Under the pieces are notes generated by a model. It saw only the letters and a list, made by a program, of their open reading frames with translations. It was not told the DNA's origin and did no database searches. The position numbers and the translations under genes are program-made. A DNA stretch of 64,000 nt from Thraustochytrium sp. TN22 (taxonomy: Eukaryota; Sar; Bigyra; Thraustochytrida; Thraustochytriidae): NCBI GenBank assembly GCA_013306675.1, contig JABLUY010000194.1, forward strand, positions 1 through 64,000, in the 5' to 3' direction. This document shows positions 177-17,632 of the stretch, in pieces; position 1 is the stretch's first letter; every line of letters starts with the position of its first letter.

Positions 177-757
177 ATGCGGGTCGTAGTGCGCGTCGGC
201 GACGCCCAGGTACGTCCGCGAGCGCGGCGCGCGGCGGCGCCGTGGCCCGGGATGAGGATGAGGGCTGGATGACAGCAGACATGACAGCCAGGACGGATGG
301 ATGGCCGCTCGAGAACGACAGCTGACGGCACGCGCGCGCGCGCGGGCAGGCGGTGGAGGTGCAGGGCGAGACGACGCGCGGCGTGCTGCAGGCGCTGGGC
401 GTGCCTGCTGGCGCGCAGGTGAGGCTGGTGGGCGCGCGCGGCGCGCTGCAGGAGGGCGCGCTGGCGGCGCAGGGCGTGGCGGACGGCGCGACGCTGTCGC
501 TGGCCGCGCGCGCGCTGGGCGGCATGCAGGTGTGGATCAAGACGCTGACGGGCCGCAAGACCCCCTTCAACTTCGAGCCGGACGTCAAGGTGATCGACGT
601 CAAGCACGCGCTGCAGGAGAAGGAGGGCATCCAGGTGGACCAGATCCGACTGATCTTCTCCGGCAAGCAGCTCGCGGACGACAAGCTGCTCGGCGACTAT
701 AACGTCAGCGCGGGCGCCGTCATCCACATGGTGCTGCAGCTGCGCGGCGGCTGCTGA
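177..757 (+). CDS. Tandem ubiquitin-like protein: FUBI-like module fused to a ubiquitin/NEDD8-like module (two exons)
   Basis: Exons 177-209 and 350-757 join in phase and give 146 residues. The first ATG at 177 opens MRVVVRVGDAQ, which continues across the junction as AVEVQGETT. Residues 1-69 resemble the FUBI half of eukaryotic FAU proteins, ending LSLAARALGG against LEVAGRMLGG in human FUBI. Residues 70-145 are exactly 76 long, like ubiquitin: MQVWIKTLTG, EKEGI, RLIFSGKQL, DYNVSAG and LQLRGG, followed by one extra Cys. By position against ubiquitin, Lys6, Lys27, Lys33 and Lys48 are kept. Lys11 is Arg, Lys29 and Lys63 are Ala, and Arg72 is Gln. A non-Arg residue at 72 is a NEDD8/Rub1-type feature. 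Each module ends in Gly-Gly, so the chain could be cut by a deubiquitinase into two modifiers. FAU normally fuses FUBI to ribosomal protein eS30, which is absent here. The fold calls are firm. Processing and pathway are inference. Confidence 0.85.
210..349 (+). other. Spliceosomal intron in the tandem ubiquitin-like gene
   Basis: This 140-nt intron has the donor CAG|GTACGT, a branch-point-like CTGAC near 322 and the acceptor GGGCAG|GCG. Removing it joins two halves of a beta-strand of the first ubiquitin-like fold in phase 0, which is the main evidence that it is real. It is the only convincing intron I found in the window. Confidence 0.8.
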
Positions 758-1223
758 GGCAAAGAAGAAGAAGACAGAGAAAAAACAAAACAAAAAAGGA
801 GAAAAAGAGCCCCAGCCGCAAGAGACGAAGGAAACGCGCGCTCTCCTCCTCCTGTTCACACCCATGCACCTACGCACCACTCCGGTCAAGCTTAGTAGGC
901 TACAGTTGATAACCATCAATCGGATTGCAAGCACGCTCTTGCGCTCTCGTGCCGCGCGGGGTGCCCGGTAGGGCGTCCTCGATCTGGGCTCACTCACAGC
1001 GGTGTGCACCGTAACGGCCAGGTAAGCAGTGCTCGTCCCGGTCCCGTCTCCTCTTGGCTTGTCTCCTCCGTCTCGACTCACTCATCCTGACTCGTGCCGC
1101 CTTCTCGTCTCGTCTCGTCTCGTCTCATCTCATCTCGCCTCGCCTCGCCTCGTCGGGTTGGAGCTGGCCCAGCCGTGGCGCAGGCCACGGCGTGGCAGAC
1201 CACGGCGGCCTCGAGGCGCGGCC
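758..1223. other. Intergenic: 3' end of the ubiquitin-like gene and leader of the next gene
   Basis: An A-rich stretch follows the stop at 757 and is likely 3' UTR. A donor-like CAG|GTAAGC at 1022 could open a 5'-UTR intron of the following gene, but I cannot identify its acceptor. Between 1108 and 1152 lies a TCTCG/CTCGC pyrimidine repeat, which gives the open frame upstream of 1224 a meaningless Ser/Leu/Val-rich translation. Confidence 0.5.
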
Positions 1224-4200
1224 ATGGACGCACGGCTGGCGAGCACAGAGCTGCTCGAGGCCGAGGCGCTGCGCGTGCTGGAGCGCATCCGCGCCATCCC
1301 CAAGGCGCCCACGCAGACTTCGCGCAAGGAAAAGCGCGGCGGCAGCGGCGGCAACAGCAGCAGCGGGCACGCGCAGTATGTTGAGGAGGCGCGCGAGGAG
1401 GGCACCTCGGCGCTGGCGCGCGTCAAGCTGGGCCTCGACGCCGAGGACGCCATCGCGGTGAAGGCGCGCGTGGACCGCGCGGGCGAGTATGCGCACATCC
1501 CGCTGCGACCCGACCTGAACGAAGAGCACGTTGCACGCATGCGCGAGCTCAAGACCTGGGCCAAGGGCCGCGCCGAGCAGCTCGACGACCTCGTGGACGT
1601 CGCCGTCAGCGCATGCCGCAACGCCGTCGTGCCGCTCACGGGCGTGCGCTACGGCGCAGCGCTGCTCACGCGCGGCGGCTTCGTCTTTAGCGGCTGCAAC
1701 ATCGAGAGTAACGAGACCTCGCTCAGCACGAGCGCCGAGAAGATGGCCATCCTCAAGGCCATCAGCGCGGGCGAGACCGACTTTGAGTGCGTCGTCATCA
1801 CATGGGATCAGACCGAGAGCCAGCGCTTTCCGCTTCCCAGCGGCGCCTCGCGCCAGTACCTCGCCGAGTTCGGCGACTTCGAGGTCATCCTCGTCCGCGC
1901 CGACCCGGCGCGAACCCGCAAGGAGGTCAGCACCTACGAGCTCTTGCCGCACATGCCGGACGGCGGCGCCACGGCGCAGACATCGACCATGGCGACGACA
2001 GCAGGGAGCGATTCAGTCCTGGCCAACACCGCCGCCGCCGCCGCCGCCACTACGCCGCGCGGAGCAGCCCGGTCGCCGCACCGCGCGCTGCAGCCCCGCG
2101 TCGTCATGGCCGGCAGGGCGTCGCCGCGCCGCTCATACGAGCCCCGGGAGCCGCTGCCCGACATCCACAGCGTCCCGGTTCACGAGTGGGGCGTGCGCCA
2201 CGTTCTAGAGTGGCTCGACAAGGACTGTGACCTGCCCTCATACAAGCACAACTTCCAGGAGGCCAGCGTGAACGGGCACGTGCTCCTCCAGCTCGCGCCG
2301 CAGGACCTCCAGGAGCTCCTCGGCGTGCACCACCCGCTTCACCTGGCCAAGTTGCGCAAGGGGCTCGAGGAGCTACGCCGTCGCGAGGTGCTCGAGGCCG
2401 GCGTGCGTGAGGGCGACATGGACGGCATGGTGGACGCCCTGCGCGAAAACGAGATCGTTTTGGTCGCGCGCCTCAAGGAGGCCTTCGACCGCGTCAACCC
2501 GGACGGCCTCGTCAGCTGCGGCGCCGAGCAGCTCAGCGCTGCCCTCGCGGCTCTGGGCTACCAGGCGGCGCCTGGCGAGGTGCAGGACTGGGTGCTCAGG
2601 TTCGGCGACCCGAGCGCGGGGCTCAGCTTTCCGCAGTTCGCGCAGGCTTTTTTGGCCGCCTCGCGTGCCACGGCTTCACAACTTGGCCTGCAGGAGGAGG
2701 GCGCCGCGGCGGCGGCGGTGACGAGCCCGGCACGGGCGGGCGGGGCCACGAACGAGCGCCTCATCGTCAGCCACGACGGCCACGTGCACTGCCGCGAGAA
2801 CAAGGCCTACGCGGACTGGTTACAGCGGCAGCAGCGCGGCCCGGCCGGCGCCAGCGCCAGCCCCGGCGCTGTGGGCCCAGCCAACAGCGGCTCCGAGCTC
2901 GCGCTCTGGCTCAAGGGCGAGGCGGGCGAGACGGGCGACATGGGCAACCGTGTCAAGTCTTTCATGCGGCTGCGCAAGCGGCCCGCCGCGGCGCTCAACA
3001 TGTCGCAGGAGGTGGGCGCCGAGGACTTCGCGCGCCTGAAGCGCATTTTTGACCGAGCCGACCGCGACCGCGCCGGCGAGATCACGCGCCACGAGGCTGC
3101 ACGCGCCTTCGCCAAAACTGGCCTGCGCGTCTCGGCTGTCGACCTCGGCCAGTACCTGCGCCTGCAGGGCCTGGACAGCGCCACGCCGCTCGACCTCTTT
3201 GAGTTCGCGCGCGCCTTTGCCTATTTTCTCAAACAGCGCGACATCAAGCTCAGCGGCGAGGCAGGCGAGTCGACTGCGCCCGGTGGAACGGACGCCACCG
3301 GCGCCAAGACCGCTACTTTGGAGCTCTCGCAGGCACAGGCGCAGGCGCAAGCGCGCTGGCCGGCGGCCTACGACCCGACAGGCTTCTTGACCAAGGCGCG
3401 CAAGGCGTACAAGAAGCGCCGCGGCTCTCGCCACGGGAGAAGCAAGACACGCGCCGCACGCTCACGGAGGCGCTCTTCCGCCTCCAAGGCGAAGCGAGCC
3501 TCACGTTCGCGGCGGCGCCGCGCCAACAGCTCAGAGAGCGAGTCGACCTCGGCGGCGTCCGAATCGTCCGAGACGGGGTCCTCCTTTTCCTCGTCCTCGT
3601 CCTCGTCCTCATCCTTGTCGGGGTCCGACTCGGACGGAAGTGGGTCCGAGAGCGACTCCGCCTCGTACACTGGCAGCAGCAGTAGCGGCAGCGGCAGCAG
3701 CAGCAGCGGCAGCGGCAGCGCCAGTGAGAGCGAGAGCAGCCCATCGGGGACCTCCTCCTCGGATGACAGGGGCTCACCGAGCCGCCGCCGCCGCCGCCGC
3801 CGAGCGCGGTCTCAGTCCAAGCCGCGGTCGCGATCCAAGGCGACCAGTCGTGAACGGCGACGTAACAGCAGCAGCCCGCTAAAGCGCAAGGCCAAACCCA
3901 TCGTCATGGGACGCCACGTTGTGCGCAAGGTTGAGCGCGCCTTCGAGGAGCACCAGAAGAGCGGCAGCCGGGGCCAGCTCCCGCTGAATGCGGTTCTGGG
4001 CGCCTTTAACTCCATCCCGCGCAGTGGCCGCAGCAAGCCACTGCCCACCAAGGAGGAGCTCCGCGAGTACTTCCGCAAGGAGGACATCTTTTACTACGCC
4101 ACGCGCCGGCAGTTCGTGCGCGCCTATGCCAAGCTGTGCTATGACATCGTGGACGAGGATTTTGAGCCGAAGCGCCGGCGCGGCTCGGATGAATCCGATG

Positions 4201-7200
4201 AAGAGGACGGCGAAGCCTGGCGCCGTGGGGATGTCGTCGAGGCTCGCTATCAAGGCCGGTCCTCATGGCTGCGCGCCGAGGTCACGCGTGTCAATGCGAA
4301 CCGCTCGGTTGACCTGCTTTACGACGATGGCGCCACGGAGCGCTCCGTCAGGCCGTCTCTGGTGCGCAAGTACCGCCGTCGAGGTTCGCGCCCGGGTTCC
4401 GTCGAGCGACTCGGCGAGCGCCGACGCAGGGACGACGGCGACGAGGAGGAGGAGGAGGAGGAGGACTCCGGCCGCGAGGCGCCCTTGCGCGAGGGCGACC
4501 GTGTCGAGGCGCGCTACAAGGGCGGGTCCAAGTGGTACAAGGGCAAGATCTCGCGCGTCAACGCGGACGGGAGTTACAATATCGATTACGACGATGGCGA
4601 CCAGGAGCGTCGCGTTGCTTCCAGCAAGGTGCGCAAGATCGGCGGTCGGGCTGGTCGCAGCCCTCGCCGCGACCGCCGGGCCGGCTCCGACACGGAGGAC
4701 GACGCTGGCGGCGGCGGTCTTCTTCACGAGGGTGACCGTGTGGAGGCGCGCTACAAAGGTGGCTCCAAGTGGTACAAGGGCAAGGTGGCCCGCGTCAACG
4801 CGGACGGGAGCTACAACATCGACTACGATGATGGCGACCAGGAGCGCCGCGTCGCGTCCAGCAAAGTCCGCAGGCTTGGCGGCAGTGGCAGCGGCCTTCG
4901 TGGCAGCCGGAGCCCGACACGCGAACGTGGTGGTGGCGGCGCGCTGCGCGAGGGAGATCGCGTTGAGGCGCGCTACAAGGGTGGCTCCAAGTGGTACAAG
5001 GGGAAGATCTCGCGTGCCAATGTGGACGGGAGCTACAACATTGACTACGAGGACGGCGACCAGGAGCGCCGCGTGGCGCCTAGCAAGGTGCGCAAGCTGG
5101 ACGGCGGAGGCGGCCGGAGCCCGCGTGGCGCCGCCTCGGACACCGAGGATGCAGGGCCGCTGCGCGAGGGCGACCGTGTGGAGGCGCGCTACAAGGGCGG
5201 GTCCAAGTGGTACAAGGGCAAGATCTCGCGCGCCAACGTGGACGGGAGCTACAACATTGACTACGACGATGGCGACCAGGAGCGCCGGGTTGCGTCCAGC
5301 AAGGTGCGCAAGCTTGGTGGAGATGGCCGCGGCGGCGGTGGCCGCAGCCCGCGCCGCGACCGTGGCGGTGGCTCGGACACCGAGGACGGTGGCGGCGCGC
5401 TGCGTGAGGGCGACCGCGTGGAGGCGCGCTACAAGGGCGGTTCCAAGTACTACAAGGGCAAGGTCTCGCGTGTGAATGTGGACGGAAGCTACAACATCGA
5501 CTACGATGACGGCGACCAGGAGCGCCGCGTCGCGGCTAGCAAGGTCCGCAAGCTGGGAGGCGGTGGCAGTAGCCGGAGCCCGACACGAAACCGTGACGGC
5601 GGCGCGCTGCGCGAGGGCGACAGAGTGGAAGCGCGCTACAAGGGTGGCTCCAAGTACTACAAGGGCAAGATCTCGCGAGTGAATGCGGACGGCAGCTTCA
5701 ACATCGACTACGACGACGGTGACCAGGAGCGTCGTGTCGCGCCCAGCAAGGTTCGCAAGCTCGGTGGCGGCGCCGGCAGTCGCAGTCCACGACGCGACGT
5801 TGGTGGCGGCTCTGACACCGAAGATGGCGGTGGTGCGCTGCGCGAGGGCGACCGCGTAGAGGCGCGCTACAAGGGCGGCTCCAAGTACTACAAGGGCAAA
5901 ATCTCGCGAGTGAATGCAGACGGTAGCTTCAACATTGATTACGACGACGGTGACCAGGAGCGCCGCGTCGCGCCCAGCAAGGTGCGCAAGCTCGGGGGTG
6001 GGGGCGGGGGCGGCCGCAGTCCGCGGCGTGACGCCATTGGCGGTGCCTCGGACACCGAGGACGGCGGCGGCGCGCTGCGCGAGGGTGACCGCGTGGAAGC
6101 GCGCTACAAGGGCGGCTCCAAGTACTACAAGGGCAAGATCTCACGCGTCAACGTGGATGGCAGCTACAACATCGACTATGACGACGGCGACCAGGAGCGC
6201 CGTGTCGCGCCCAGCAAGGTGCGCAAGCTGGGCGACCGCGGCGGCGGGACTCGCAGTCCGCGCCGCGACCTTGGAGGCGCCTCGGACACCGAGGACGGTG
6301 GCGGCGCGCTGCGCGAGGGCGATCGCGTCGAAGCCCGCTACAAGGGCGGCTCCAAGTACTACAAGGGCAAGATCTCACGCGTCAATGCGGATGGCAGCTT
6401 CAACATCGACTACGACGATGGTGACCAGGAGCGCCGCGTTGCACCGAGCAAGGTGCGCAAGCTCGGTGGTGGCGGCGGTAGCCGCAGCCCGCGCCGCAAC
6501 CGTGGAGGCGCCTCGGACACCGAGGATGACGGCGGCGCGCTGCGCGAGGGCGACCGCGTCGAAGCGCGCTACAAGGGCGGCTCCAAGTACTACAAGGGCA
6601 AGATCTCGCGCGTCAACGTGGATGGCAGCTACAACATCGACTATGACGACGGCGACCAGGAGCGTCGTGTCGCGCCCAGCAAGGTGCGCAAGCTGGGCGG
6701 CCGCGGCGGCGGGAGTCGCAGTCCGCGCCGCGACCCTGGAGGCGCCTCGGACACCGAGGACGGTGGCGGCGCGCTGCGCGAGGGCGATCGCGTCGAAGCC
6801 CGCTACAAGGGCGGCTCCAAGTACTACAAGGGCAAGATCTCACGCGTCAACGTGGACGGGAGCTACAACATTGACTACGACGACGGCGACCAGGAGCGCC
6901 GGGTTGCGTCCAGCAAGGTGCGCAAGCTGGGCGGCGGCGGTGGTAGCCGCAGCCCAACTCGAGATCGCGAGGGCGGTGCGCCGCGGGAGGGCGACCGCGT
7001 GGAAGCGCGGTACAAGGGCGGCTCCAAGTGGTACAAGGGCAAGGTCTCGCGCGTAAACGCGGACGGAAGTTTCAACATCGATTACGACGACGGTGATCAG
7101 GAGCGCCGCGTCGCGCCTAGTAAGGTGCGCAAGCTGGGCGGCGGCGGTGGTGGCAGCAGGAGCCCGCGACGCAACGTTGTTGGTGCCTCGGACACTGAGG

Positions 7201-9116
7201 ATGACGGCGGCGCGCTGCGCGAGGGCGACCGCGTCGAAGCGCGTTACAAAGGCGGCTCCAAATACTACAAGGGTAAGATCTCGCGCGTCAACGTGGACGG
7301 TAGCTACAACATCGAGTACGACGACGGCGACCAAGAACGCCGCGTTGCGCCCAGCAAGGTACGCAAGCTGGGCGGCCGCGGCGGCGGGAGTCGCAGTCCG
7401 CGCCGCGACCCTGGAGGCGCCTCGGACACCGAGGACGGTGGCGGCGCACTGCGCGAGGGCGATCGCGTCGAAGCCCGCTACAAGGGCGGCTCCAAGTACT
7501 ACAAGGGCAAGATCTCGCGCGTGAATGTGGACGGTAGCTACAACATCGAGTACGATGATGGTGATCAAGAGCGCCGCGTCTCGGCCAGTAAGGTTCGCAA
7601 GCTGGGCGGCAGCCCGCGAGGCAACCGCGCCGCGCCCTCCGATACGGAAGACGGCGGCGGCGCGCTGCGCGAGGGCGACCGCATCGAGGCGCGGTACAAG
7701 GGTGGCTCCAAGTGGTTCAAGGGCAAGATCTCGCGCGTCAACGTGGACGGCAGCTACAATATTGACTACGACGATGGCGACCAGGAGCGCCGCGTGGCGC
7801 CCAGCAAGGTGCGCAAGATGGGCGGCGGGGGCGGGGGTAGTCGCAGCCCGCGTCGCGACCGCGGCGGCGGCAGCTCCGATACGGAGGAAGACGGCGGCGG
7901 TTCGCTTCGCGAGGGCGATCGTGTGGAAGCGCGGTACAAGGGCGGTGCCAAGTATTACAAGGGCAAGATCTCGCGCGTGAACGCGGACGGGAGCTACAAT
8001 ATCGAATACGATGACGGCGACCAGGAGCGTCGGGTAGCACCTAGCAAGGTACGCAAGGTTGGCGGCGGCGGCGGCGGCGGCGGCGGCAGTCGAAGCCCAC
8101 GGCGAGACGTTGGCGCCACATCGGACACCGAGGATGGTGGCAGCGCTCTCCGCGAGGGTGACCGTGTCGAGGCTCGCTACAAGGGCGGGGCCAAGTGGTA
8201 CAAGGGCAAGGTGTCACGTGCGAACGTGGACGGCAGCTACAACATTGACTACGATGATGGCGACCAGGAGCGTCGCGTAGCGCCCAGCAAAGTGCGCAAG
8301 GCCGGGAGCAGCGGTGGCGGCGGCGGCGGCGGCGGCGGAAGTAGCAGTAGGAGCTCTCGGCGCGACGTGATTGTCACTTCGGACACCTCGGACGGCGGCG
8401 TTCTGCGCGAGGGCGACCGCGTGGAGGCACGTTACAAGGGTGGGTCCAAGTACTACAAGGGCAGGATCTCGCGGGTCAATGCGGACGGGAGCTACAACAT
8501 CGAGTACGACGATGGCGACCAGGAGAGGCGCGTGGCGCCGAGCAAGGTCCGCAGCCTCGGGGGAGGCGGCGGTGGCGGCCGGAGCCCGCGGCGCGAGGCG
8601 GGCGCCACCTCGGACACTGAGGATGGCGGCGGCACCCTCCGCCAGGGCGACCGCGTCGAGGCGCGTTACCGAGGCGGCGCCAAGTGGTACAAGGGCAAGA
8701 TCTCGCGTGTCAACACGGACGGCAGCTACGACATCGACTACGATGACGGCGACCAGGAGCGTCGCGTGGCATCCAGCAAGGTGCGGGCAGCCGCTGGTGG
8801 CCTGCGTGGGTCGTCGCCTCGGCGGCCTGCAAGCAGCAGCGACCCGGACCTGCGAACCGGGGATCGCGTAGAAGCGCGCTTCCGCGGGCAGAACAAGTGG
8901 TACCCGGGCTCCGTCTCGTGCGTAAACCGCGACGGCACGTACGACATTGCCTACGACGACGGCGATGCGGACCAAGGTCTACCGCGCGAGCACATTCGTC
9001 GCGCGGAGAGTGGTTCAGGCGGCGGCGTCCGGCGCGCCGGTCGCGTCGTGCAGACTCGTACGAGCTTTTCGCGTGACGACAATCCGAGACGGCCTCGCTC
9101 TGGCGGCCACTACTGA
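1224..9116 (+). CDS. Giant multidomain protein: inactive-looking cytidine-deaminase fold, SAM, EF-hand-like, SR-rich tract, about 21 Tudor-like repeats
   Basis: The ATG at 1224 gives 2630 residues. The open frame extends upstream but only through a simple repeat. Residues about 118-244 follow homotetrameric cytidine deaminases (GAALLTRGG, FSGCNIES). The zinc-ligand motifs are altered: CAE reads SAE (Ser170, with Glu172 kept) and PCxxC reads PSGAS (Ser206, Ser209). Next come a SAM domain (about 319-389), degenerate EF-hand-like segments (about 406-480 and 596-670), a Ser/Arg/acidic tract (about 727-892) and a further helical, EF-like segment. From about residue 997 to the end run 21 Tudor-like units of the type GDRVEARYKGGSKWYKGK, then YNIDYDDGDQERRV, joined by Gly-rich linkers carrying SDTED and RSPRRD. 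Tudor-like repeats commonly read methylated Lys/Arg, and SR tracts suggest a nuclear or RNA-processing role. Both points are inference; no orthologue is recognised. Confidence 0.85.
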   Translation: MDARLASTELLEAEALRVLERIRAIPKAPTQTSRKEKRGGSGGNSSSGHAQYVEEAREEGTSALARVKLGLDAEDAIAVKARVDRAGEYAHIPLRPDLNEEHVARMRELKTWAKGRAEQLDDLVDVAVSACRNAVVPLTGVRYGAALLTRGGFVFSGCNIESNETSLSTSAEKMAILKAISAGETDFECVVITWDQTESQRFPLPSGASRQYLAEFGDFEVILVRADPARTRKEVSTYELLPHMPDGGATAQTSTMATTAGSDSVLANTAAAAAATTPRGAARSPHRALQPRVVMAGRASPRRSYEPREPLPDIHSVPVHEWGVRHVLEWLDKDCDLPSYKHNFQEASVNGHVLLQLAPQDLQELLGVHHPLHLAKLRKGLEELRRREVLEAGVREGDMDGMVDALRENEIVLVARLKEAFDRVNPDGLVSCGAEQLSAALAALGYQAAPGEVQDWVLRFGDPSAGLSFPQFAQAFLAASRATASQLGLQEEGAAAAAVTSPARAGGATNERLIVSHDGHVHCRENKAYADWLQRQQRGPAGASASPGAVGPANSGSELALWLKGEAGETGDMGNRVKSFMRLRKRPAAALNMSQEVGAEDFARLKRIFDRADRDRAGEITRHEAARAFAKTGLRVSAVDLGQYLRLQGLDSATPLDLFEFARAFAYFLKQRDIKLSGEAGESTAPGGTDATGAKTATLELSQAQAQAQARWPAAYDPTGFLTKARKAYKKRRGSRHGRSKTRAARSRRRSSASKAKRASRSRRRRANSSESESTSAASESSETGSSFSSSSSSSSSLSGSDSDGSGSESDSASYTGSSSSGSGSSSSGSGSASESESSPSGTSSSDDRGSPSRRRRRRRARSQSKPRSRSKATSRERRRNSSSPLKRKAKPIVMGRHVVRKVERAFEEHQKSGSRGQLPLNAVLGAFNSIPRSGRSKPLPTKEELREYFRKEDIFYYATRRQFVRAYAKLCYDIVDEDFEPKRRRGSDESDEEDGEAWRRGDVVEARYQGRSSWLRAEVTRVNANRSVDLLYDDGATERSVRPSLVRKYRRRGSRPGSVERLGERRRRDDGDEEEEEEEDSGREAPLREGDRVEARYKGGSKWYKGKISRVNADGSYNIDYDDGDQERRVASSKVRKIGGRAGRSPRRDRRAGSDTEDDAGGGGLLHEGDRVEARYKGGSKWYKGKVARVNADGSYNIDYDDGDQERRVASSKVRRLGGSGSGLRGSRSPTRERGGGGALREGDRVEARYKGGSKWYKGKISRANVDGSYNIDYEDGDQERRVAPSKVRKLDGGGGRSPRGAASDTEDAGPLREGDRVEARYKGGSKWYKGKISRANVDGSYNIDYDDGDQERRVASSKVRKLGGDGRGGGGRSPRRDRGGGSDTEDGGGALREGDRVEARYKGGSKYYKGKVSRVNVDGSYNIDYDDGDQERRVAASKVRKLGGGGSSRSPTRNRDGGALREGDRVEARYKGGSKYYKGKISRVNADGSFNIDYDDGDQERRVAPSKVRKLGGGAGSRSPRRDVGGGSDTEDGGGALREGDRVEARYKGGSKYYKGKISRVNADGSFNIDYDDGDQERRVAPSKVRKLGGGGGGGRSPRRDAIGGASDTEDGGGALREGDRVEARYKGGSKYYKGKISRVNVDGSYNIDYDDGDQERRVAPSKVRKLGDRGGGTRSPRRDLGGASDTEDGGGALREGDRVEARYKGGSKYYKGKISRVNADGSFNIDYDDGDQERRVAPSKVRKLGGGGGSRSPRRNRGGASDTEDDGGALREGDRVEARYKGGSKYYKGKISRVNVDGSYNIDYDDGDQERRVAPSKVRKLGGRGGGSRSPRRDPGGASDTEDGGGALREGDRVEARYKGGSKYYKGKISRVNVDGSYNIDYDDGDQERRVASSKVRKLGGGGGSRSPTRDREGGAPREGDRVEARYKGGSKWYKGKVSRVNADGSFNIDYDDGDQERRVAPSKVRKLGGGGGGSRSPRRNVVGASDTEDDGGALREGDRVEARYKGGSKYYKGKISRVNVDGSYNIEYDDGDQERRVAPSKVRKLGGRGGGSRSPRRDPGGASDTEDGGGALREGDRVEARYKGGSKYYKGKISRVNVDGSYNIEYDDGDQERRVSASKVRKLGGSPRGNRAAPSDTEDGGGALREGDRIEARYKGGSKWFKGKISRVNVDGSYNIDYDDGDQERRVAPSKVRKMGGGGGGSRSPRRDRGGGSSDTEEDGGGSLREGDRVEARYKGGAKYYKGKISRVNADGSYNIEYDDGDQERRVAPSKVRKVGGGGGGGGGSRSPRRDVGATSDTEDGGSALREGDRVEARYKGGAKWYKGKVSRANVDGSYNIDYDDGDQERRVAPSKVRKAGSSGGGGGGGGGSSSRSSRRDVIVTSDTSDGGVLREGDRVEARYKGGSKYYKGRISRVNADGSYNIEYDDGDQERRVAPSKVRSLGGGGGGGRSPRREAGATSDTEDGGGTLRQGDRVEARYRGGAKWYKGKISRVNTDGSYDIDYDDGDQERRVASSKVRAAAGGLRGSSPRRPASSSDPDLRTGDRVEARFRGQNKWYPGSVSCVNRDGTYDIAYDDGDADQGLPREHIRRAESGSGGGVRRAGRVVQTRTSFSRDDNPRRPRSGGHY
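4213..8990 (+). repeat. Coding tandem array of Tudor-like units, about 21 copies
   Basis: Core units of about 54 codons are separated by linkers of variable length, giving a DNA period of roughly 200-240 bp. The first unit (from about 4213) and the last (about 8850-8990) are divergent. The central ones are nearly identical. Segments near 6700-6840 and 7370-7510 differ at only a few bases over about 140 bp, which points to recent unequal exchange or gene conversion. The first cage-like aromatic position alternates between Trp (SKWYKG, about 10 units) and Tyr (SKYYKG, about 11 units). Confidence 0.9.
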
Positions 9117-9205: not shown

Positions 9206-9484
9206 TTAGCATACAGCTGTGACCGGGATGGTGACTCCCTGCTCGGCTCCGTCCTGCATCACCACCGTCGCGTCCTTGTCCTCGGCGTCCGCAAAGCTAA
9301 TGCCCCTGGCCACGTACCTGGGCGGCTTTCCCTCGCCGGCCTCGTTGCGCACGTCGACGGTCTGTTCACCGACGCGCAGCGCGACCGGGACGAGGCCGTC
9401 CTCCACGTCCTTGAAGATCACATAGTCGCGCGCCTCGGGCAGGCCGACGCCCGGCATGCGGTTCTGGATGCCCTCGAGCTGCAT
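9206..9484 (-). CDS. Possible small protein of unknown function
   Basis: A 92-codon reverse reading frame starts at the ATG at 9484 (MQLEGIQNRMPG) and ends VTIPVTAVC at a TAA. Its composition is balanced (Asp, Glu, Val, Gly, hydrophobics in alternation, such as RDYVIFKDVEDG), unlike the Arg/Ala/Pro translations of shadow frames nearby. The frame stays open upstream through a Gly run. A further reverse stretch near 9718-9760 reads YPCQQYPNNFDF after an acceptor-like CTGCAG, so a spliced, longer N-terminus is possible. I recognise no family. It lies tail-to-tail with the giant Tudor gene and head-to-head with the dehydrogenase gene. Confidence 0.35.
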   Translation of the reverse strand: MQLEGIQNRMPGVGLPEARDYVIFKDVEDGLVPVALRVGEQTVDVRNEAGEGKPPRYVARGISFADAEDKDATVVMQDGAEQGVTIPVTAVC

Positions 9485-9559
9485 GGCGAGCGACGCCCTC
9501 CCGCCGCCGCCGCCGCCGCCGCGTGCGCGCCAGCGCCGGGCCGGAGGCGTGCGTTGGCG

Positions 9560-9720
9560 CGCCCTTGGGTCGGCGACCTGGGCGCGACGACGGTGGTCCT
9601 CAGGCTGAGCGCGCTCGGCGCGGAGACCAGGCGCCGGCGCGCCGTTGGACTGGCGACCTGGGCGCGACCTCGGTGGTCCTCAGGCGCCCTCAGGCTGAGC
9701 GCGCCCGGCGCGGAGTCCGC
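9560..9720. repeat. Two-copy tandem duplication, period about 80 bp
   Basis: GGCGACCTGGGCGCGAC occurs at 9572 and again at 9652. The flanking bases, including GGTGGTCCTCAGG and CTGAGCGCGC, are also shared, and the second copy carries a small extra segment. It lies between the doubtful reverse gene and the dehydrogenase start. Confidence 0.8.
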
Positions 9721-9831
9721 CCTGAAGTCGAAGTTGTTCGGGTACTGCTGGCACGGGTACGGCTGCAGCGACTAGCTCCAGGGCGCGAACAAGGCGCGGC
9801 AGAGCGCGATCGAGGCCGCGGCGAAGGGAGG

Positions 9832-11226
9832 ATGGCGGCGGTCGTGGGCGGGGCGCGGCGGGCGGCGCGCGCGGCGGGCGGCGCGGCCGCGGGCGGCGCG
9901 CGGCGCGGGCTCCACCTGGGGTCGGCGCGGCCGAGCGCGCTGGCCAAGGCCATGCAGGAGGCCGGCGTGCGGCGCGGGTTCGTGGCGACGCGCGGCGGGC
10001 GCGTGGAGGCCAGCCACGAGGTGCTGGAGCCCGTGCGGCAGATGCTGGAGCAGGACGAGGTGGACTTTGACGCGCACGAGGCGATCTTCTTGGAGGCGTA
10101 CGAAGACTGCGTGCTGGGCGCGTTCTTGTGGCGCACGCAGCGCGGCCAGGGGTGCGGCGGCATCCGCCTGCGGCCGTACGCCTCCGCCGAGGCGTACATC
10201 CGCGACGGGATGCGGCTGGCCATCGGCATGGGGCGCAAGAGCGCCCTGGCCGGGCTCTGGTGGGGCGGCGGCAAGGGCGTCATCGCGCGCGGCGACGACG
10301 ACACGCTCGTGCACGACCCGGCGCGGCGCACGGCACTGCTGCGCGCCTACGGTAGCTTCATCTCCAGCCTGCGCGGCGCCTACGTGGCGGCTGAGGACGC
10401 CGGCATCTCGGTGGCCGACATGGATATCGTTTTCCAAAAGACGCGCTACATCACGTGCGTGAGCCCGGAACTCGGCGGCAGCGGCAACCCGAGCGTGCCG
10501 ACGGCGCTGGGCGTCATCGCCGGCATGGAGGGCGCTCTCGCGGAGCTTGGCATGGGCGGCCTCGAGGGCAAGTCCGTGGCCGTTCAGGGCTGCGGCAATG
10601 TTGGCGGGCCCATGATCCGCTATTTGCTGGAGCGCGGCGTGGGTCGCGTGGTGGCTGTCGACGTGGACCCGATGCGCATCGCCCAACTCAAGGAGGAGTG
10701 CGCTCCGATCGAGGCCGGTCGCCTCGAGGCCTCCGTGGACCCCTCCACGGCCATCCTCTCCTCCGAGGTCGACATCGTCTCCCCGTGCGCCTTTGGCGGC
10801 GTGCTCAACGACGAGACTGTGCCTCAGCTGCGCGCCAAGATTGTCTGCGGCGCCGCCAACAACCAGCTCCTCGACCCGGCCACGGACTACGGCATGCAGG
10901 CCAAGGGCATCACTTACGTGCCTGACTTTGTCTGCAACCGCATGGGCATCGTCAACTGCTCCAACGAGCAGTACGGCCGCGTTGGCAACCCGGGCGGCGT
11001 CGAGGACCCCATCGTGGCGCGCCACCTCGGCCGCGACTGGGAGAACTCCGTCTACAACGTCACGCGCACCGTTATCGCCGCGGCACGCCGCGACAACTCC
11101 ACCACCAACGACGTCGCCAACGCATTCGCCAATGACGCGGCGCACCAGCTCCACCCCATCTTCGGTCATCGCTCCCAGGACATTATCTCCAGTCTCATCG
11201 CCGACGGCTGGGCTGACGCCAAGTAG
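9832..11226 (+). CDS. Leucine dehydrogenase-type amino acid dehydrogenase (Glu/Leu/Phe/Val family), probably mitochondrial
   Basis: The ATG at 9832 gives 464 residues. The first 35 or so residues are rich in Ala and Arg and lack acidic residues (MAAVVGGARRAARAAGG), as in a mitochondrial presequence. The catalytic domain has MRLAIGMGRKSALAG and GGGKGVI, matching both active-site lysines of leucine dehydrogenase. It also has AAEDAGIS, then SPELGGSGNPS and TALGVIAGMEGAL. The Rossmann part has VAVQGCGNVGGP and ends its strand with VVAVDVD, an NAD-preferring pattern. The family reversibly deaminates a branched-chain or aromatic amino acid to its 2-oxo acid. Both lysines are present, so it should be active. 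The exact substrate cannot be read from sequence. This subtype is best known from bacteria, so a bacterial or organellar origin is possible. Confidence 0.9.
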   Translation: MAAVVGGARRAARAAGGAAAGGARRGLHLGSARPSALAKAMQEAGVRRGFVATRGGRVEASHEVLEPVRQMLEQDEVDFDAHEAIFLEAYEDCVLGAFLWRTQRGQGCGGIRLRPYASAEAYIRDGMRLAIGMGRKSALAGLWWGGGKGVIARGDDDTLVHDPARRTALLRAYGSFISSLRGAYVAAEDAGISVADMDIVFQKTRYITCVSPELGGSGNPSVPTALGVIAGMEGALAELGMGGLEGKSVAVQGCGNVGGPMIRYLLERGVGRVVAVDVDPMRIAQLKEECAPIEAGRLEASVDPSTAILSSEVDIVSPCAFGGVLNDETVPQLRAKIVCGAANNQLLDPATDYGMQAKGITYVPDFVCNRMGIVNCSNEQYGRVGNPGGVEDPIVARHLGRDWENSVYNVTRTVIAAARRDNSTTNDVANAFANDAAHQLHPIFGHRSQDIISSLIADGWADAK

Positions 11227-11970
11227 GCGTGTTACAAGGTTAGTCCCACGGTAGCTTTTTTTTTTTTACATAAAGGTCAGCTGTCCATTCGGTTGTGAAG
11301 CTCCGCGCCGTCGCCGTCATTAGGTTGCGAAGCGTGGCCCAGCAAAAGCACCCAAGTGCACGATCACATGTCGAACTTGCACGCGCCGAACGCACCCACC
11401 CACCCAGCCCGGCCGCAAACGCAATAATAGCTCCGCCCATTTCGTGGAAGCGTGGTGTGCTTCCCGCTCCGCCGCACTCTCTTTCTTCGCACTACAGGAA
11501 CGGTGTGTACCCGTGCCCGCCACCGGCCGCTCTCACACTGCCATGACCAACGAAACCTTGGCGGGCCGCCCACGAGCCGGAGCGACGGAATCGGACGGCC
11601 GCACGGAGCTGCGAGACACCGCGCGTCAGACGTATCGCCAGCCGGCGCTCACAGTCAGGCGCAGGTGCTTAGGACTCGGACGGAGGGACGGGCCAGGGCG
11701 TCTTCGAGCGCGAGCTGGGCTGCACCTCAAAATGGACTCGGCCCGGCCCCGTCCACCACCAGTGGGTGGGGGCACTTGCCATCGTTGTCCAGGCGGTGGG
11801 TGCAGGCAGGCACGAGATTGCAGGAACGCAGATCGAAGGCCAGCGAGGGATGCCAAGTCTAATTTGGCTGGGCACCCGCAAGCAGGCTTTGGGCAAGTGC
11901 CAAACAAATCTGCAGCACGAAGCAGGTGGGCAGACCCCATTCGTTGCTCGTGGCGCGCGGTGACAGCACC
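11227..11970. other. Intergenic, no gene seen
   Basis: Holds the 3' end of the dehydrogenase gene, with a T-run at 11257-11268, and the leader of the next gene. The open frames here have no protein-like composition, and the upstream extension of the next frame from 11926 has no ATG before 11971. Confidence 0.5.
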
Positions 11971-13647
11971 ATGCCAGTCATCGTTGCGCTCGTGGCGCTC
12001 ATGGCGCTGGCATCGCCCCCGCGCGCGCTGGGCTCAGGGTACCTGGCGTTCCCGCCATCGCGCAATCTGCTGGCCCAGGGCGGTTCGGCAGGCGAGGACG
12101 GAATCGACGGCCTCAATGGCGGCGGCAGCGACACGGAGCGAGTGATGGGCCACGGGCTGTGCGGCGACGGCGCGCTGCGCAGTGAGTTCACATCGCCAAA
12201 TGCGTACGGAGCAGCCGTGCCGACGGTGAGCTTCGTGGAGGGCGGCACCTTGGACATCAACATCGTGGTGACGGACCACAAGTGGGGTTGGTTTGAGTTC
12301 CGGCTGTGCGCGCCGGACGATGGCGGCGTGGACCTCACCTTGCCCATCACACAGACCTGCCTCAACGAGCACGTGCTCGAGTTCGATGAAGAATACACAG
12401 TAGCCAGCTACCAAGGCGCCATGGAGACCGGCCGCAGCTCGCCCGCGGACTACTTCACCAGCTTTCTCTTGGAGAGGGCGCGCTGGTCGCTCTGCGACCG
12501 TCTTGATGGGCAGGCCGGCAACGGCAGCATCAGTAGTACCGAGGACTCCTTCGCGCCCCTCGGCAGTTGTTGCAACGAGGGCGGAGACTGTTCCACGAGG
12601 CAAGAAAACAGCAACCGCTGGGTCTTACCCACCCCTGACGCCGGACTCAACTACACGATGCGCTACCGACTGCCCGATGGCGTTGTCTGCGAGCGCTGCG
12701 TCTTGCAGTGGTACTGGCAGACTGGCCGTCCCAGCTCCGATGACTATACGGATGAGTACTACCCAGAGGGCTACTGGAACTGCGCAGACATTGCCATTGA
12801 GGCCGCTGAGGCTACCGACGCATCGGATGTCCTTGTCAACGCGAACGCCAACGCGAATGCCAACGCGAATGCCAGCAATAGCAATGGCAATGGCAATGGC
12901 AATGGCAATGGCAACGGCAACGGCAATGGCAATGGCAACGGCAATGGCAGCAACGAGACGACCAACACGCCAACAGCATCGCCGACGAAATCACCGACAA
13001 CATCCCAAACAGCATCGCCGACGAAATCACCGACAACATCCCAAACAGCATCGCCGACGAAATCACCGACAACATCCCAAACAGCATTGCCGACGAAATC
13101 ACCGACAACATCCCAAACAGCATCGCCGACGAAATCACCGACAACATCCCAAACAGCATCGCCAACATCGCAGTCCACCGAGACCATCAACAACACGGTG
13201 ATCAGCAACGATGAGGACGACGCGGACGACGCGGACGACAGCGCGGAGAAGGATGACGCTGGCGCTGATAAGAGCGATTCCTTTTCGCCGATGGCTTTTG
13301 CGCTGAGTGGCGCGGCCGCAGTGCTGGGCCTCGCTGGCGTAGCTGCCTTCTTCGTGTCGACACGGAGCAAAACGGCGCGGCCGCCTGGCGCGGCAGGCGT
13401 CCGCGGAGCCGCTGGCAAGCTTGCCGCGGTCTCACGCACGTCCCTTATGGCTGTCGTCCGCGCTGGCGGCCTCTTCTCCTCTCACGACAAACCCATTGGT
13501 TTTCATACCATGCATGCGAAGGAGATTGATAATGTCCTTGTGGCGCAGCCGCTGAGTGACTCTGACGTTGACGAAGCCCATGTGCCCGTCGCGGAGGCGA
13601 AACCCGTGTCGCACAACCAACGATTGACTAGCAGGTTTGGTTTCTAA
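11971..13647 (+). CDS. Membrane-anchored LPMO/chitin-binding-4-like protein A
   Basis: 558 residues. A signal peptide (MPVIVALVALMALASPPRALG) should be cut just before SGYLAFPPSRN. The ectodomain follows the LPMO/chitin-binding type-4 plan: GYLAFPPSRN, GHGLCGDG, TDHKWGWFEFRLC with the second copper-brace His, CERCVLQWYW and GYWNCADIAI. Canonical LPMOs begin the mature chain with His. Here that position is Ser, so oxidative catalysis is doubtful and carbohydrate binding more likely. A stalk of Asn-Ala and Asn-Gly dipeptides and five SPTKSPTTSQ-type repeats leads to an acidic patch, one membrane span (FALSGAAAVLGLAGVAAFFV) and a cytosolic tail containing KEIDNVLVAQP. It is the first of three tandem paralogues and lacks the extra Cys module of the other two. 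Confidence 0.85.
   Translation: MPVIVALVALMALASPPRALGSGYLAFPPSRNLLAQGGSAGEDGIDGLNGGGSDTERVMGHGLCGDGALRSEFTSPNAYGAAVPTVSFVEGGTLDINIVVTDHKWGWFEFRLCAPDDGGVDLTLPITQTCLNEHVLEFDEEYTVASYQGAMETGRSSPADYFTSFLLERARWSLCDRLDGQAGNGSISSTEDSFAPLGSCCNEGGDCSTRQENSNRWVLPTPDAGLNYTMRYRLPDGVVCERCVLQWYWQTGRPSSDDYTDEYYPEGYWNCADIAIEAAEATDASDVLVNANANANANANASNSNGNGNGNGNGNGNGNGNGNGNGSNETTNTPTASPTKSPTTSQTASPTKSPTTSQTASPTKSPTTSQTALPTKSPTTSQTASPTKSPTTSQTASPTSQSTETINNTVISNDEDDADDADDSAEKDDAGADKSDSFSPMAFALSGAAAVLGLAGVAAFFVSTRSKTARPPGAAGVRGAAGKLAAVSRTSLMAVVRAGGLFSSHDKPIGFHTMHAKEIDNVLVAQPLSDSDVDEAHVPVAEAKPVSHNQRLTSRFGF
12976..13155 (+). repeat. 36-bp tandem repeat, 5 copies, coding the Thr/Ser/Pro stalk
   Basis: Exact 36-bp units start at 12976, 13012, 13048, 13084 and 13120. 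Only the fourth has a change (Ser to Leu). Each encodes ASPTKSPTTSQT. The array follows an Asn-Ala/Asn-Gly dipeptide tract. The stalk probably varies in length between strains. Confidence 0.95.
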
Positions 13648-13868: not shown

Positions 13869-14209
13869 AAGCCGAGCGTCGTGCCGAGCCGAGCGCGCCG
13901 TGCCAAGCCGAGCGCCGTGCAAGCCGAGCGCCGTGCACGCCCGGCCCACTTTCATCCCTCGCTCGCTTAATTTTTGGTGTCGCCTCTTGCGTGATCGCAC
14001 GGGACAAATCGCTTGAAGTCTGAGTCCACCACATGTTCTGGCGCAGCTCAATGCCAGCGCGCACTACTCGGCCCTTGCTTGACAGGGACAGTCCAAGTAG
14101 CTAGGTGTGGGGGCTGGAAGTGAGGGGGGGAAGTGGTGGCGCCGGACGAGATTGGACTGACCAATTAGTCTGCCGCTAGCTAGCGGCAGAACCACAACGC
14201 GGCGGAGCG

Positions 14210-15775
14210 ATGGCCGCCGCCGCCTTCGTGCTCGCAGCTTCCGCGGTCTTCGGGGCGGTGCGGAGCGCGCAAGGCGCTGGGTACCTGGCGTACCCGCCGG
14301 CAAGAAATGTGCTCTACGAGGGCGGGTCGCGCGGGCCAGACGGCATCTCCCTCTTGCAGGCGGGCGGGAGCGCCGTGGAGCTGGTGCAGGGCCACGGTCT
14401 TTGCGGCGACTGGAGCAATCGCAGCGAGTTCACCTCGCCGAATGCCTACGGCGGTGGCCCGCCCGTGGTGGTCTACGAGGTGCAAGAACGCATCGATGTG
14501 AACATCGTCTTGACGGAGCACCAGTGGGGCTGGTTTGAGTTCCGCCTGTGCGTGCTGCCGGATGGTGGCGTTGACCTCACGCAGCCCATCTCGCAGGCCT
14601 GTCTGAACGAGCACATCCTACGGTTTGACAAGTCGCCGACGGAGGATGCCTACCCAGAGGAGGTGATGGAGGCCGGGCGGTCCTCGCCGGCGGACTACGA
14701 GGGTGATTCAGACCTTTCAGATCGCGCGGAGAACAGCAAATGCGAGCTGCAGGATGATGAATTCGACGGGAGTCCTGAGGGGTCCTGTTGCAACGGGGGC
14801 GGCGATTGCGAGGACGAGGCCAGTAACAAGGAGCGCTGGGTGGTGCCGAGGCCCGACAGCGACGCCGGCCTCAACTACACAGTGCGCTTGAAGCTGCCCA
14901 AGGACGTGGTCTGCGAGCGCTGCGTTCTGCAGTGGTATTACCAGGCAGGAAGGCCAGCGGACAACGTGGACGGCTACTGGTACCCGGAGGGGACATGGAA
15001 CTGCGCCGATGTGGCCATCATTGACGACGGCGCCGACCCGGCCACCATCCTTGAGACAGCATGGGTCGGCCTCAAGGGGACTTCGGGCGACCAAGTCACC
15101 TGCAAGGCAGCCAGCGGGGACGACCACGACGTCTGCCGCCATTATGCGTGCTCCGCGCCCCTGATTGAGTCCGGGCTCTGCGTGCGAACCCCTACGGCGG
15201 CGCCAACCGTGCTGCCCACGGTGGCGCCCACGGACGCGCCTACCATGACACCCACAGACGCGCCGACGGCGAGCCCGACGTGGAGACCGACGCAGTTGCC
15301 AACGCAGTCGCCAACGCAGGCGCCAACCATTGCGCCAACTCTCTCCACAGTAGACAGCGGCAACTTCGCGACCCAGGCACCGACAGCAACCGAATCGACG
15401 GAGGCCCTGACCCCGCTCTTTCTTAGCGTCGCGATCGCTGGAGGCGGAGTCGTGCTCGGGCTGGCCGGCGTTCTTGCTCTCTTCATATCGAAGCGCAAGT
15501 CGTCCGCGACTCAAGCTCAGATCAACTTCCTCGCCGCGCAGGCAGGCTTTGGAGACCGCGGGCCTCGCGCGCCTCCTGGTCTGCGCAGAGCGCGAGCGTC
15601 GATTGCCCGCTTCTTCGGAATGGAGGATGCGCCGGTGGCGTCGCCAGCAAGCTCCAACATGTCGTTCACCTCAGGGAGCTCGACCTCCGCGCTGCCCATG
15701 ACCGCCAAGTCGATCGAGCAGGTCGTCGTCGCCATGCCCGTTGAGGGTGACTGTCCCTTGAACCGCGAACTATAA
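14210..15775 (+). CDS. Membrane-anchored LPMO/chitin-binding-4-like protein B
   Basis: 521 residues from the ATG at 14210. The signal peptide ends GAVRSAQG, and the mature chain would start AGYLAYPPARN, with Ala where LPMOs have His1. Conserved blocks include GHGLCGDW, TEHQWGWFEFRLC (second copper His kept), CERCVLQWYYQ and TWNCADVAI. A Cys-rich module (WVGLKG, then CRHYACSAPLIESGLC) follows and is shared with paralogue C. The stalk is a run of PTxAPT units, common in stramenopile surface proteins. One membrane span (LFLSVAIAGGGVVLGLAGVL) precedes a tail with KSIEQVVVAMP. Extracellular glycan binding with cytosolic signalling or anchoring is inferred. Confidence 0.85.
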   Translation: MAAAAFVLAASAVFGAVRSAQGAGYLAYPPARNVLYEGGSRGPDGISLLQAGGSAVELVQGHGLCGDWSNRSEFTSPNAYGGGPPVVVYEVQERIDVNIVLTEHQWGWFEFRLCVLPDGGVDLTQPISQACLNEHILRFDKSPTEDAYPEEVMEAGRSSPADYEGDSDLSDRAENSKCELQDDEFDGSPEGSCCNGGGDCEDEASNKERWVVPRPDSDAGLNYTVRLKLPKDVVCERCVLQWYYQAGRPADNVDGYWYPEGTWNCADVAIIDDGADPATILETAWVGLKGTSGDQVTCKAASGDDHDVCRHYACSAPLIESGLCVRTPTAAPTVLPTVAPTDAPTMTPTDAPTASPTWRPTQLPTQSPTQAPTIAPTLSTVDSGNFATQAPTATESTEALTPLFLSVAIAGGGVVLGLAGVLALFISKRKSSATQAQINFLAAQAGFGDRGPRAPPGLRRARASIARFFGMEDAPVASPASSNMSFTSGSSTSALPMTAKSIEQVVVAMPVEGDCPLNREL

Positions 15776-16249
15776 CAGCGAGCCCTGCAGCTCGTTGATG
15801 ATGATTGAAATCGTTACGAATGGAACAGCTCTTGAAGGTTTGTTGTGAGTTAGCGCATCCAACGACCAGGTTCCCAAAGCGGGACTGGACACGTGGGTCC
15901 CAATCAATAAAATGGACACACCACCAGCATGCGCAGCTGCATCCAAGCGCTCACGATTGGACAATGCGCGGGGTGCGCGTGTGGATGAGCCTGAGCGGCA
16001 CGACCCGAAGCGAGCGAGGGAAGGACGGAGCGCATGAACGGGCGAGTGAGTGGGCGGCCAGCGAGCAAGTGAGCGAGCGAGCGAGCGAGCGAGGGGCGAG
16101 CGGCGGCGAGCAAGCAGCAAACCACTAGCTGGCTGGCGGGCTAGCTGGCTGGCTGGCTGGCTCTAGCTGGCTGGCTGGCTTTAGAGCTAGCTAGCTAGAG
16201 GCTAGCTAGCTAGCCTTGCTGAAGCTTGCTTGCTTGCAAGCGTGACGGC
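15776..16249. repeat. Intergenic with microsatellites
   Basis: A (GAGC)n run covers about 16071-16094. About 16126-16238 is a mixed array of GCTGG, GCTAGCTA and GCTTGCTTGC that ends 12 bp before the start codon of gene C. The palindromic CTAGCTAG element also lies about 35 bp upstream of gene B. No gene seen. Confidence 0.7.
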
Positions 16250-17632
16250 ATGCGCGCGGCCGTGGTGCTCGTGGTGCTGGCGCTTGTGCAGGGCGCGCGC
16301 GGCGAAGGGTATCTGGCATACCCTCCGGCGCGCAACGTTCTATACGAGGGCGGGTCGCGGGGCGCCCAGGGACTTGACATGCTCAATGCAGGCGGAAGCG
16401 CAATCGAGCAGCGTTACGGGCACGGGCTCTGCGGCGATAACAGCGACAGGCGTGAATTCATGTCGCCCAACGCTTACGGCGCTGGCCCGCCCGTGGCGGT
16501 CTTCACCGAGGGCGAGACCGTCACCTTCAATGTGGTGCTGACAACGCACCGCTGGGGTTGGTTTGAATTTCGCCTATGCAACCTGGACGATGGCGGCGTG
16601 GACCTCACCAAACCCATCACCCAAGAGTGCCTGAACACCCACGTGCTCGAGTTTGACCGCGACGATGTTGCTCAGACGTACAACGGCGCGATGGAGACGG
16701 GACGAGCATCCCCCGCGGACTACAAAGGTAGCTCCAGCACAATCACCGCACGCGCCGAGTACAGCAAGTGTTGGGTGCAGGACTATTACTACGATGGCAA
16801 CCCGGCAGGCTCCTGTTGCAACAACGGCGGCACTTGCTCCTCGGAAAAGTACAATGACGAGCGCTGGGTGGTCCCGAAGCCCGAGGCCGGTCTGAATCTG
16901 ACGATGCAGTACGAGCTGCCGAGCGGCGTCACCTGCGAGCGTTGCGTGCTGCAGTGGTATTACCAGGGCGGGCGACCGACGTCCAATATCAACGGGGACT
17001 TTTATCCGGAGGGGACGTGGAATTGCGCGGACATCGCCATCTTGCCGTCCGGCGTCAACAAGGCGAGCCCGCGCAACGTATCCTGGGTTGGTCTGCGGTC
17101 CGCGCCGGAGGGCTCCACATGCGTGTCCACCTCCGGCGAGAGTGACGGTCTGTGCCAGCACTACAACTGTGCCCAGCCGCTCCTCGACAGTGGCCTCTGC
17201 ACGCACCGGACTGCGGCACCAACATCGGCAAGCAGTAACGACCAGGTCGACGGCAGTGGCGATGACAGCGGCGGCAACAACAACGCGAGCTTTCCCTTTG
17301 GAGCCGTCGTCGGTGCTGCAGCGGCGAGCGGCGCTGTGGCGGCCGGCGTCGTGCTGTACTTGAATCGCAACTCGGCCAAGAAGGGCATGCCCATCGCCGA
17401 GGCCGAGTTCGTGCCTCCAGACGCTGAGATCGGTCGCGGCGCAGGAGGCGCTGGCGCTGGCGCTGGCGCGAGTGGTGCAGGTAGCAAGCGAACCCGCGCC
17501 TCGATGCTGAACGCGCGCGATCTGCTCCGCAAGAGCCTCTTCAAGGACAAGCCGCAGGGCTCCCTTCTCGTCGCCAAGGAGGTCGAGAGCGTCGTGATGG
17601 CGCGGCCAGTCCTTGCCGAGCTCGTATCATGA
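16250..17632 (+). CDS. Membrane-anchored LPMO/chitin-binding-4-like protein C
   Basis: 460 residues. The first true ATG is 16250; an in-frame TTG lies upstream. The signal peptide MRAAVVLVVLALVQGARG leaves EGYLAYPPARN, with Glu at the usual His1 position. Conserved blocks are GHGLCGDN, TTHRWGWFEFRLC, CERCVLQWYYQ and TWNCADIAI, then the second Cys module (WVGLRS, CQHYNCAQPLLDSGLC). The stalk is short and Gly/Asn/Asp-rich. A weakly hydrophobic Ala/Gly/Val span (GAVVGAAAASGAVAAGVVLY) and a basic tail with KEVESVVMARP follow. The tail motif matches those of A and B, though the intervening stalks have fully diverged. Confidence 0.85.
   Translation: MRAAVVLVVLALVQGARGEGYLAYPPARNVLYEGGSRGAQGLDMLNAGGSAIEQRYGHGLCGDNSDRREFMSPNAYGAGPPVAVFTEGETVTFNVVLTTHRWGWFEFRLCNLDDGGVDLTKPITQECLNTHVLEFDRDDVAQTYNGAMETGRASPADYKGSSSTITARAEYSKCWVQDYYYDGNPAGSCCNNGGTCSSEKYNDERWVVPKPEAGLNLTMQYELPSGVTCERCVLQWYYQGGRPTSNINGDFYPEGTWNCADIAILPSGVNKASPRNVSWVGLRSAPEGSTCVSTSGESDGLCQHYNCAQPLLDSGLCTHRTAAPTSASSNDQVDGSGDDSGGNNNASFPFGAVVGAAAASGAVAAGVVLYLNRNSAKKGMPIAEAEFVPPDAEIGRGAGGAGAGAGASGAGSKRTRASMLNARDLLRKSLFKDKPQGSLLVAKEVESVVMARPVLAELVS

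Follow-up and report, generated by a model that had tools for sequence, protein, structure and literature searches.

The window, by which we mean the whole 64,000-nucleotide stretch analysed, carries near its start two ubiquitin-like modules that follow one another, the first resembling FUBI and the second resembling ubiquitin and NEDD8. At the level of the sequence this two-module fusion is real, and splicing of positions 177–209 to 350–757 would give one product that contains both modules. We lean towards the view, drawn from the sequence and from analogy with known precursors, that the gene specifies a cleavable precursor of a FUBI-like modifier or carrier and of this organism's NEDD8 or NEDD8-like modifier. 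The gene appears to combine two known parts in an unfamiliar pairing, and not to represent a new kind of system.

Gene structure

The features of the gene, all on the forward strand, are as follows.

177..209 (+): exon 1, 33 nt and 11 codons, with the start codon and the first strand of module 1
210..349 (+): intron predicted from the sequence, GT-AG, 140 nt
350..757 (+): exon 2, with the stop codon at 755–757
350..523 (+): remainder of module 1 (its exon 2 part), FUBI-like by alignment, phmmer and tree, ending in RALGG
524..751 (+): module 2, ubiquitin/NEDD8-like, 76 residues, ending in LQLRGG
752..757 (+): Cys tail, one residue after Gly-Gly, and the stop codon

The spliced product would have 146 residues, made up of a 69-residue module 1, a 76-residue module 2 ending in LRGG, and a single Cys before the stop. 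The predicted intron has the donor CAG/GTACGT and the acceptor GCAG/G, with phase 0 at both junctions, and is interrupted by stops in each of the three phases. The peptide of exon 1, MRVVVRVGDAQ, pairs with MQLFVRA... of FUBI in the alignment. An earlier note on this DNA had proposed the same gene model, with these two exons, two modules with Gly-Gly ends, and a second module of 76 residues plus Cys, and the sequence bears it out. The sequence CAGGTACGT occurs twice over the two strands of the window, against about 0.5 occurrences expected with equally common bases.

In exon 1, GC content at the three codon positions is 0.91/0.36/0.91. The exon 2 part of module 1 has 0.91/0.59/0.97 and module 2 has 0.63/0.31/0.96, compared with 0.68/0.81/0.70 for the intron. 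That the frame of module 1 is open is little proof of coding, since a second frame of the same stretch is also open. Translation might instead start at ATG 524 (exon 2 has no earlier in-frame ATG), which would yield an unfused module 2 of 77 residues and leave module 1 as untranslated DNA or a relic; the splicing is, after all, predicted from the sequence. We regard such a start as very improbable, since in-frame homology lies upstream of it and reaches into the first strand restored by splicing, the third-position GC is 0.97 in the exon 2 part of module 1, the donor is good, and no ATG of the window precedes ATG 177.

FUBI likeness of module 1

Module 1 is best read as FUBI-like. Pfam gave no match to module 1 alone. 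When module 1 was compared by phmmer with 177,635 PDB sequences, with E up to 10, only 8q7z and 7oyc were found; these are 133-residue chains annotated as eS30, and it is their FUBI part that is matched (E 0.31 and 0.37). Against single modifiers, module 1 gives 16.2, 15.4, and 12.1 bits with three FUBIs, 7.2 bits with ubiquitin, 2.7 and 2.6 bits with NEDD8s, and 0.2 bits with an ISG15 half. By these bits, and by a tree in which its branch is long, module 1 is nearer to FUBI than to the other modifiers tested.

The global alignment scores of module 1 are 66 against human FUBI and 73 against the FUBI of 7oyc. These were matched by 0 of 5000 full shuffles, by 0 of 5000 shuffles preserving the initial M and the GG, and by 0 of 11,361 stop-free 69-residue windows, taken one per five residues from the six frames of the same DNA; the top-scoring windows overlap the module 1 locus. 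Against ubiquitin the score is 44, as high as in none of the shuffles, and this value was attained by eight six-frame windows, the four listed being module 2. With phmmer, 20,000 shuffles of module 1 reached the real score 0 times for the FUBI of 7oyc, 25 times for human FUBI, and twice for ubiquitin. Thus, the resemblance is beyond chance, by a margin that is not wide on every test, given 0 of 20,000 shuffles in one case and 25 of 20,000 in another.

The tree comprised five NEDD8, 12 ubiquitin, and three FUBI rows, one of the last being partial, with 11 of the contig ubiquitin loci described below included. Module 1 groups with the three FUBI rows with support 96/96; its branch is long (2.72 changes per column) and its composition odd, so that long-branch effects are possible in this grouping. 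A topology that keeps the FUBI rows together to the exclusion of module 1 is not rejected (p-AU 0.318).

Several hallmarks of FUBI are present. Residues 65 to 69, RALGG, fit the RXLGG tail, which PMC10611586 describes as found in FUBI and in no other such modifier; within the six frames of the window, 25 of 1372 Gly-Gly pairs are preceded in this way, the tail of module 1 counted. FUBI is also described with a two-residue deletion around Leu8 and with Val40 (PMC10611586). The MAFFT alignment places the same two-column gap near ubiquitin Leu8 in module 1 and in both FUBIs, and Val35 of module 1 is the counterpart of Val40. Other hallmarks are absent. The counterpart of Pro47 is Gly42, and in place of the Phe4 patch there is Val4; according to PMC10611586, both Phe4 and Pro47 show strict conservation across 156 FUBI sequences filtered for 74-residue coverage. 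Since Pro47 contacts USP16 and USP36, and is the main contact to USP36 (PMC10611586), a host protease would need another mode of recognition to act on module 1. The eS30 fusion is missing as well, the partner in this gene being module 2. Module 1 has 69 residues against 74 for FUBI, with the five fewer residues at the helix, and it has no lysines.

These features could also be accounted for by a plant-type ubiquitin–NEDD8 precursor whose ubiquitin has decayed into a spacer or cleavable leader, its FUBI likeness (no lysines, RXLGG, shorter loop) being convergent. The tandem layout fits ubiquitin–NEDD8 fusions, module 1 is very divergent and short at the helix, and it beats shuffles against ubiquitin too (0 of 5000 in alignment, 2 of 20,000 in phmmer). 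We nevertheless think decay from ubiquitin unlikely, if worth keeping in mind, because the phmmer bits prefer FUBI (12.1–16.2 against 7.2), the two-residue gap and the RXLGG tail coincide with those of FUBI, and the tree, in spite of its long branches, joins module 1 to FUBI at 96/96. Accepting module 1 as FUBI-like, its identity as FUBI is the weaker of the propositions made here, as it rests on a match of 12–16 bits and on some hallmarks, two being missing. An AlphaFold2 model of exon 2 alone, made with neither the first strand nor an alignment, left module 1 unfolded and, at a mean pLDDT of 41.7, is uninformative about it.

Module 2 between ubiquitin and NEDD8

There is no doubt that module 2 belongs to the ubiquitin family (Pfam ubiquitin, 2.3e-21). 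By overall similarity, it stands midway within that family. It is identical to human ubiquitin at 38 of 76 positions and to human NEDD8 at 37 of 76, where the two human proteins themselves share 44 residues. At the 32 positions that distinguish them, module 2 has the ubiquitin state at 8, the NEDD8 state at 7 (K22, V23, E32, S46, K54, G64, and V66), and neither at 17. The phmmer scores are similarly close, with 73.8 bits for ubiquitin, 72.3 for Arabidopsis RUB1, and 70.4 for human NEDD8. A predicted model of module 2 alone is of low confidence (mean pLDDT 59.5) and shows strands at residues 2–6, 12–16, 41–45, and 67–71 and a helix at 23–34, in the order found in ubiquitin.

The tree gives module 2 no placement. 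The cost of grouping it with the five NEDD8 rows is 0.57 log units, and this grouping is not rejected (p-AU 0.447); for the ubiquitins the cost is 1.93 log units, and that grouping is mildly rejected (p-AU 0.037). Three of the five NEDD8 rows were taken as the sequences of Drosophila, S. pombe, and S. cerevisiae; the Arabidopsis RUB1 row agrees over its full length with PDB 1bt0.

It is a small number of functional residues, then, and neither overall similarity nor the tree, that partly supports a NEDD8 identity for module 2. In module 2, residue 51 is the non-acidic Ala and residue 53 is Asp, one of the two residues (Asp or Glu) reported at this position of NEDD8 (PMC3215745). Position 51 is described as the main determinant of NEDD8 recognition by SENP8, with position 72 as a helper and position 53 making little direct contact (PMC3215745). 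The stretch Ala51-Asp52-Asp53-Lys54 is common to module 2 and Arabidopsis RUB1. Residue 72 is Gln, not Arg. In the selection experiments of PMC3731359, every variant accepted by the ubiquitin E1 retained Arg72, and the NEDD8 E1 accepted Gln72 among others; NEDD8 A72Q bound human NAE 27-fold more weakly than the wild type and was yet crystallised in the NAE pocket. Residues 51 and 72 thus favour NEDD8 or a NEDD8-like modifier. With Gln72 and 38 of 76 identities, module 2 departs from the near-invariant ubiquitin sequence with Arg72.

The lysines of module 2 are at positions 6, 12, 22, 27, 33, 48, and 54. The earlier note was correct in reading Gln at position 72 and the loss of Lys11, Lys29, and Lys63. 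From these it had suggested a dedicated modifier and not ubiquitin. Human NEDD8 lacks Lys29 and Lys63 too, so that their loss is not special to module 2.

A further comparison is with ubiquitin loci found on contigs of viruses and prokaryotes. An alignment query yielded 11 viral loci and, from prokaryotes, the best 80 of 222; the latter are the top hits to a query made in part of ubiquitin and so do not sample the family evenly. Four of these 91 (L010, L011, L028, and L064) lost register when positions were simply counted and were left out. In the 87 in-register loci, with their prokaryote part limited to the best 80 of 222, 58 to 75 of the 76 human ubiquitin residues are kept, against 38 in module 2, and none of the 87 is nearer to NEDD8 than to ubiquitin. 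Among the same 87 (prokaryote part, best 80 of 222), Ala51 and Val66 do not occur, Lys22 and Asp53 each occur in one locus, Ser46 and Gly64 each in two, and Lys54 in 11, though the tree's 12 ubiquitin rows all lack it; Gln72 is found in three and Arg72 in 74. Module 2 has all seven of K22, S46, A51, D53, K54, G64, and V66, and no locus of the 87 (again with the best 80 of 222 from prokaryotes) has more than one, a contrast biased toward module 2 because the residues were picked after inspecting it. Pattern-based searches found no close relatives of the fusion in the viral contigs or the genome contigs, and no close matches to Arabidopsis RUB1, module 2, or eS30 in the viral contigs.

Alternatively, module 2 might be a ubiquitin paralogue that evolves fast, or else a distinct modifier, served by either a dedicated E1 or the ubiquitin E1. 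It is equally distant from ubiquitin and NEDD8, and its ubiquitin states V26, Q31, D39, and L56 are absent from the five NEDD8 rows used. We judge such an origin improbable, as Ala51, Asp53, Gly64, Val66, and Gln72 occur all together, grouping with the ubiquitins has a p-AU of 0.037, and Arg72 was retained under ubiquitin E1 selection (PMC3731359).

Comparison with known precursors

The closest layout is that of the ubiquitin–NEDD8 (UBQ-RUB) precursors of plants and green algae, for example CrRUB1 of Chlamydomonas, which have the same tandem of two modules, likewise each ending in Gly-Gly, with a NEDD8-like second module and a short C-terminal tail. NEDD8 of plants, mosses, and algae is reported to be made from such precursors (PMC3968751, PMC3215745). 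In UBQ-RUB, however, the first module is ubiquitin, whereas it is FUBI-like in this gene, and the second module here is by far the more divergent, with 37 of 76 identities to human NEDD8 against the 84% reported for CrNEDD8. By word search, a survey of algal ubiquitin fusions (PMC6332867) contains neither NEDD8 nor FUBI.

In animals and the unicellular organisms related to them, the FUBI-eS30 (FAU) precursor has the same two-residue deletion, RXLGG tail, and N-terminal place as module 1, but its partner is eS30 instead of a modifier. No tblastn match to eS30 was found within the 64-kb window. PMC8354635 describes FUBI-eS30 as characteristic of Holozoa, and PMC2346548 states that earlier-branching eukaryotes lack the fusion; a review gives it for animals and unicellular organisms and not for yeast (PMC11354881). 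Among the 60 eS30 chains listed of 72 in the PDB, 13 have 98–176 residues and 47 have 41–67; the search listing links 9eho to octopus.

NEDD8/Rub1 shares with module 2 its 76 residues, the LRGG end followed by a short tail, Ala51, Asp53, Lys54, Gly64, Val66, and the want of Arg at position 72. Residue 72 is nonetheless Gln in module 2 and Ala or Thr in the five NEDD8 rows used, and the 17 of 32 distinguishing sites set module 2 apart from human NEDD8 and ubiquitin alike. A FUBI–NEDD8 fusion was not among the matches listed in our literature searches, which had most subscription papers outside their reach. The earlier note's description of a FUBI-like module fused to a NEDD8/ubiquitin-like one is kept as the best reading, with the qualification that the identity of each module depends on a limited number of residues or bits.

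Proposed processing and its implications

By analogy with both known precursors, we propose a release by two cuts. A deubiquitinase-type protease would cut after RALGG, freeing the FUBI-like protein, and also after LRGG, taking off the terminal Cys. Module 2 would then act as the organism's NEDD8 or NEDD8-like modifier. Its Gln72 should bar the ubiquitin E1 and be tolerated by the NEDD8 E1, so that activation by NAE and conjugation, with cullins as the likely targets, may be envisaged. Module 1 would be a cleavable N-terminal carrier, in the place that ubiquitin has in the plant and green-algal ubiquitin–NEDD8 precursors. It is perhaps a modifier in its own right, or it may serve only as a leader that aids folding or expression.

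It is tempting to go further and propose that FUBI is not confined to animals and their near relatives but occurs, free of eS30, as the carrier of a NEDD8 precursor in this lineage, a proposal that we put forward tentatively and hold to be rather doubtful. If true, FUBI would have arisen earlier, as a cleavable leader that can be moved between partners, instead of being invented around eS30 in the animal lineage. Fusion of FUBI to eS30 has served to unite animals with their unicellular relatives (PMC2346548). FUBI on another partner, and possibly in another lineage, would make its origin testable, and would allow FUBI to be studied apart from ribosome assembly. Likewise, a NEDD8-like protein with Gln72 would show in nature a substitution that was examined in mutants (PMC3731359).

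Other features of the window

No tRNA was found in the window, and Rfam gave no match there at the gathering score. Its Pfam matches, NELF-A, SAM, and PAN among them, mark the DNA as eukaryotic. Three adjacent LPMO_10 (PF03067) frames lie on the forward strand at 11863–13644, 14180–15772, and 16223–17629, each with a GYLA(Y/F)PP(A/S)RN start behind a signal-like peptide. LPMO-type enzymes have a copper-binding first histidine; these three frames may be non-catalytic because Ser, Ala, or Glu stands at the expected position.

A single open frame of 2696 codons at 1026–9113 (+) has 20 repeat units after its cytidine-deaminase-like, SAM, and EF-hand regions. We take its GDRVEARYKG-type repeat to be Tudor-like, and this Tudor-repeat protein may resemble stramenopile or haptophyte ones. 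The frame at 9415–11223 (+) belongs to the Glu/Leu/Phe/Val dehydrogenase family (1.3e-15) and has a long N-terminal part with no Pfam match. At 50413–51630 (−) there is a match to the NELF-A N-terminal domain (2.2e-8), and an unbroken frame of 2576 codons at 18745–26472 (+) contains repeated PAN domains.
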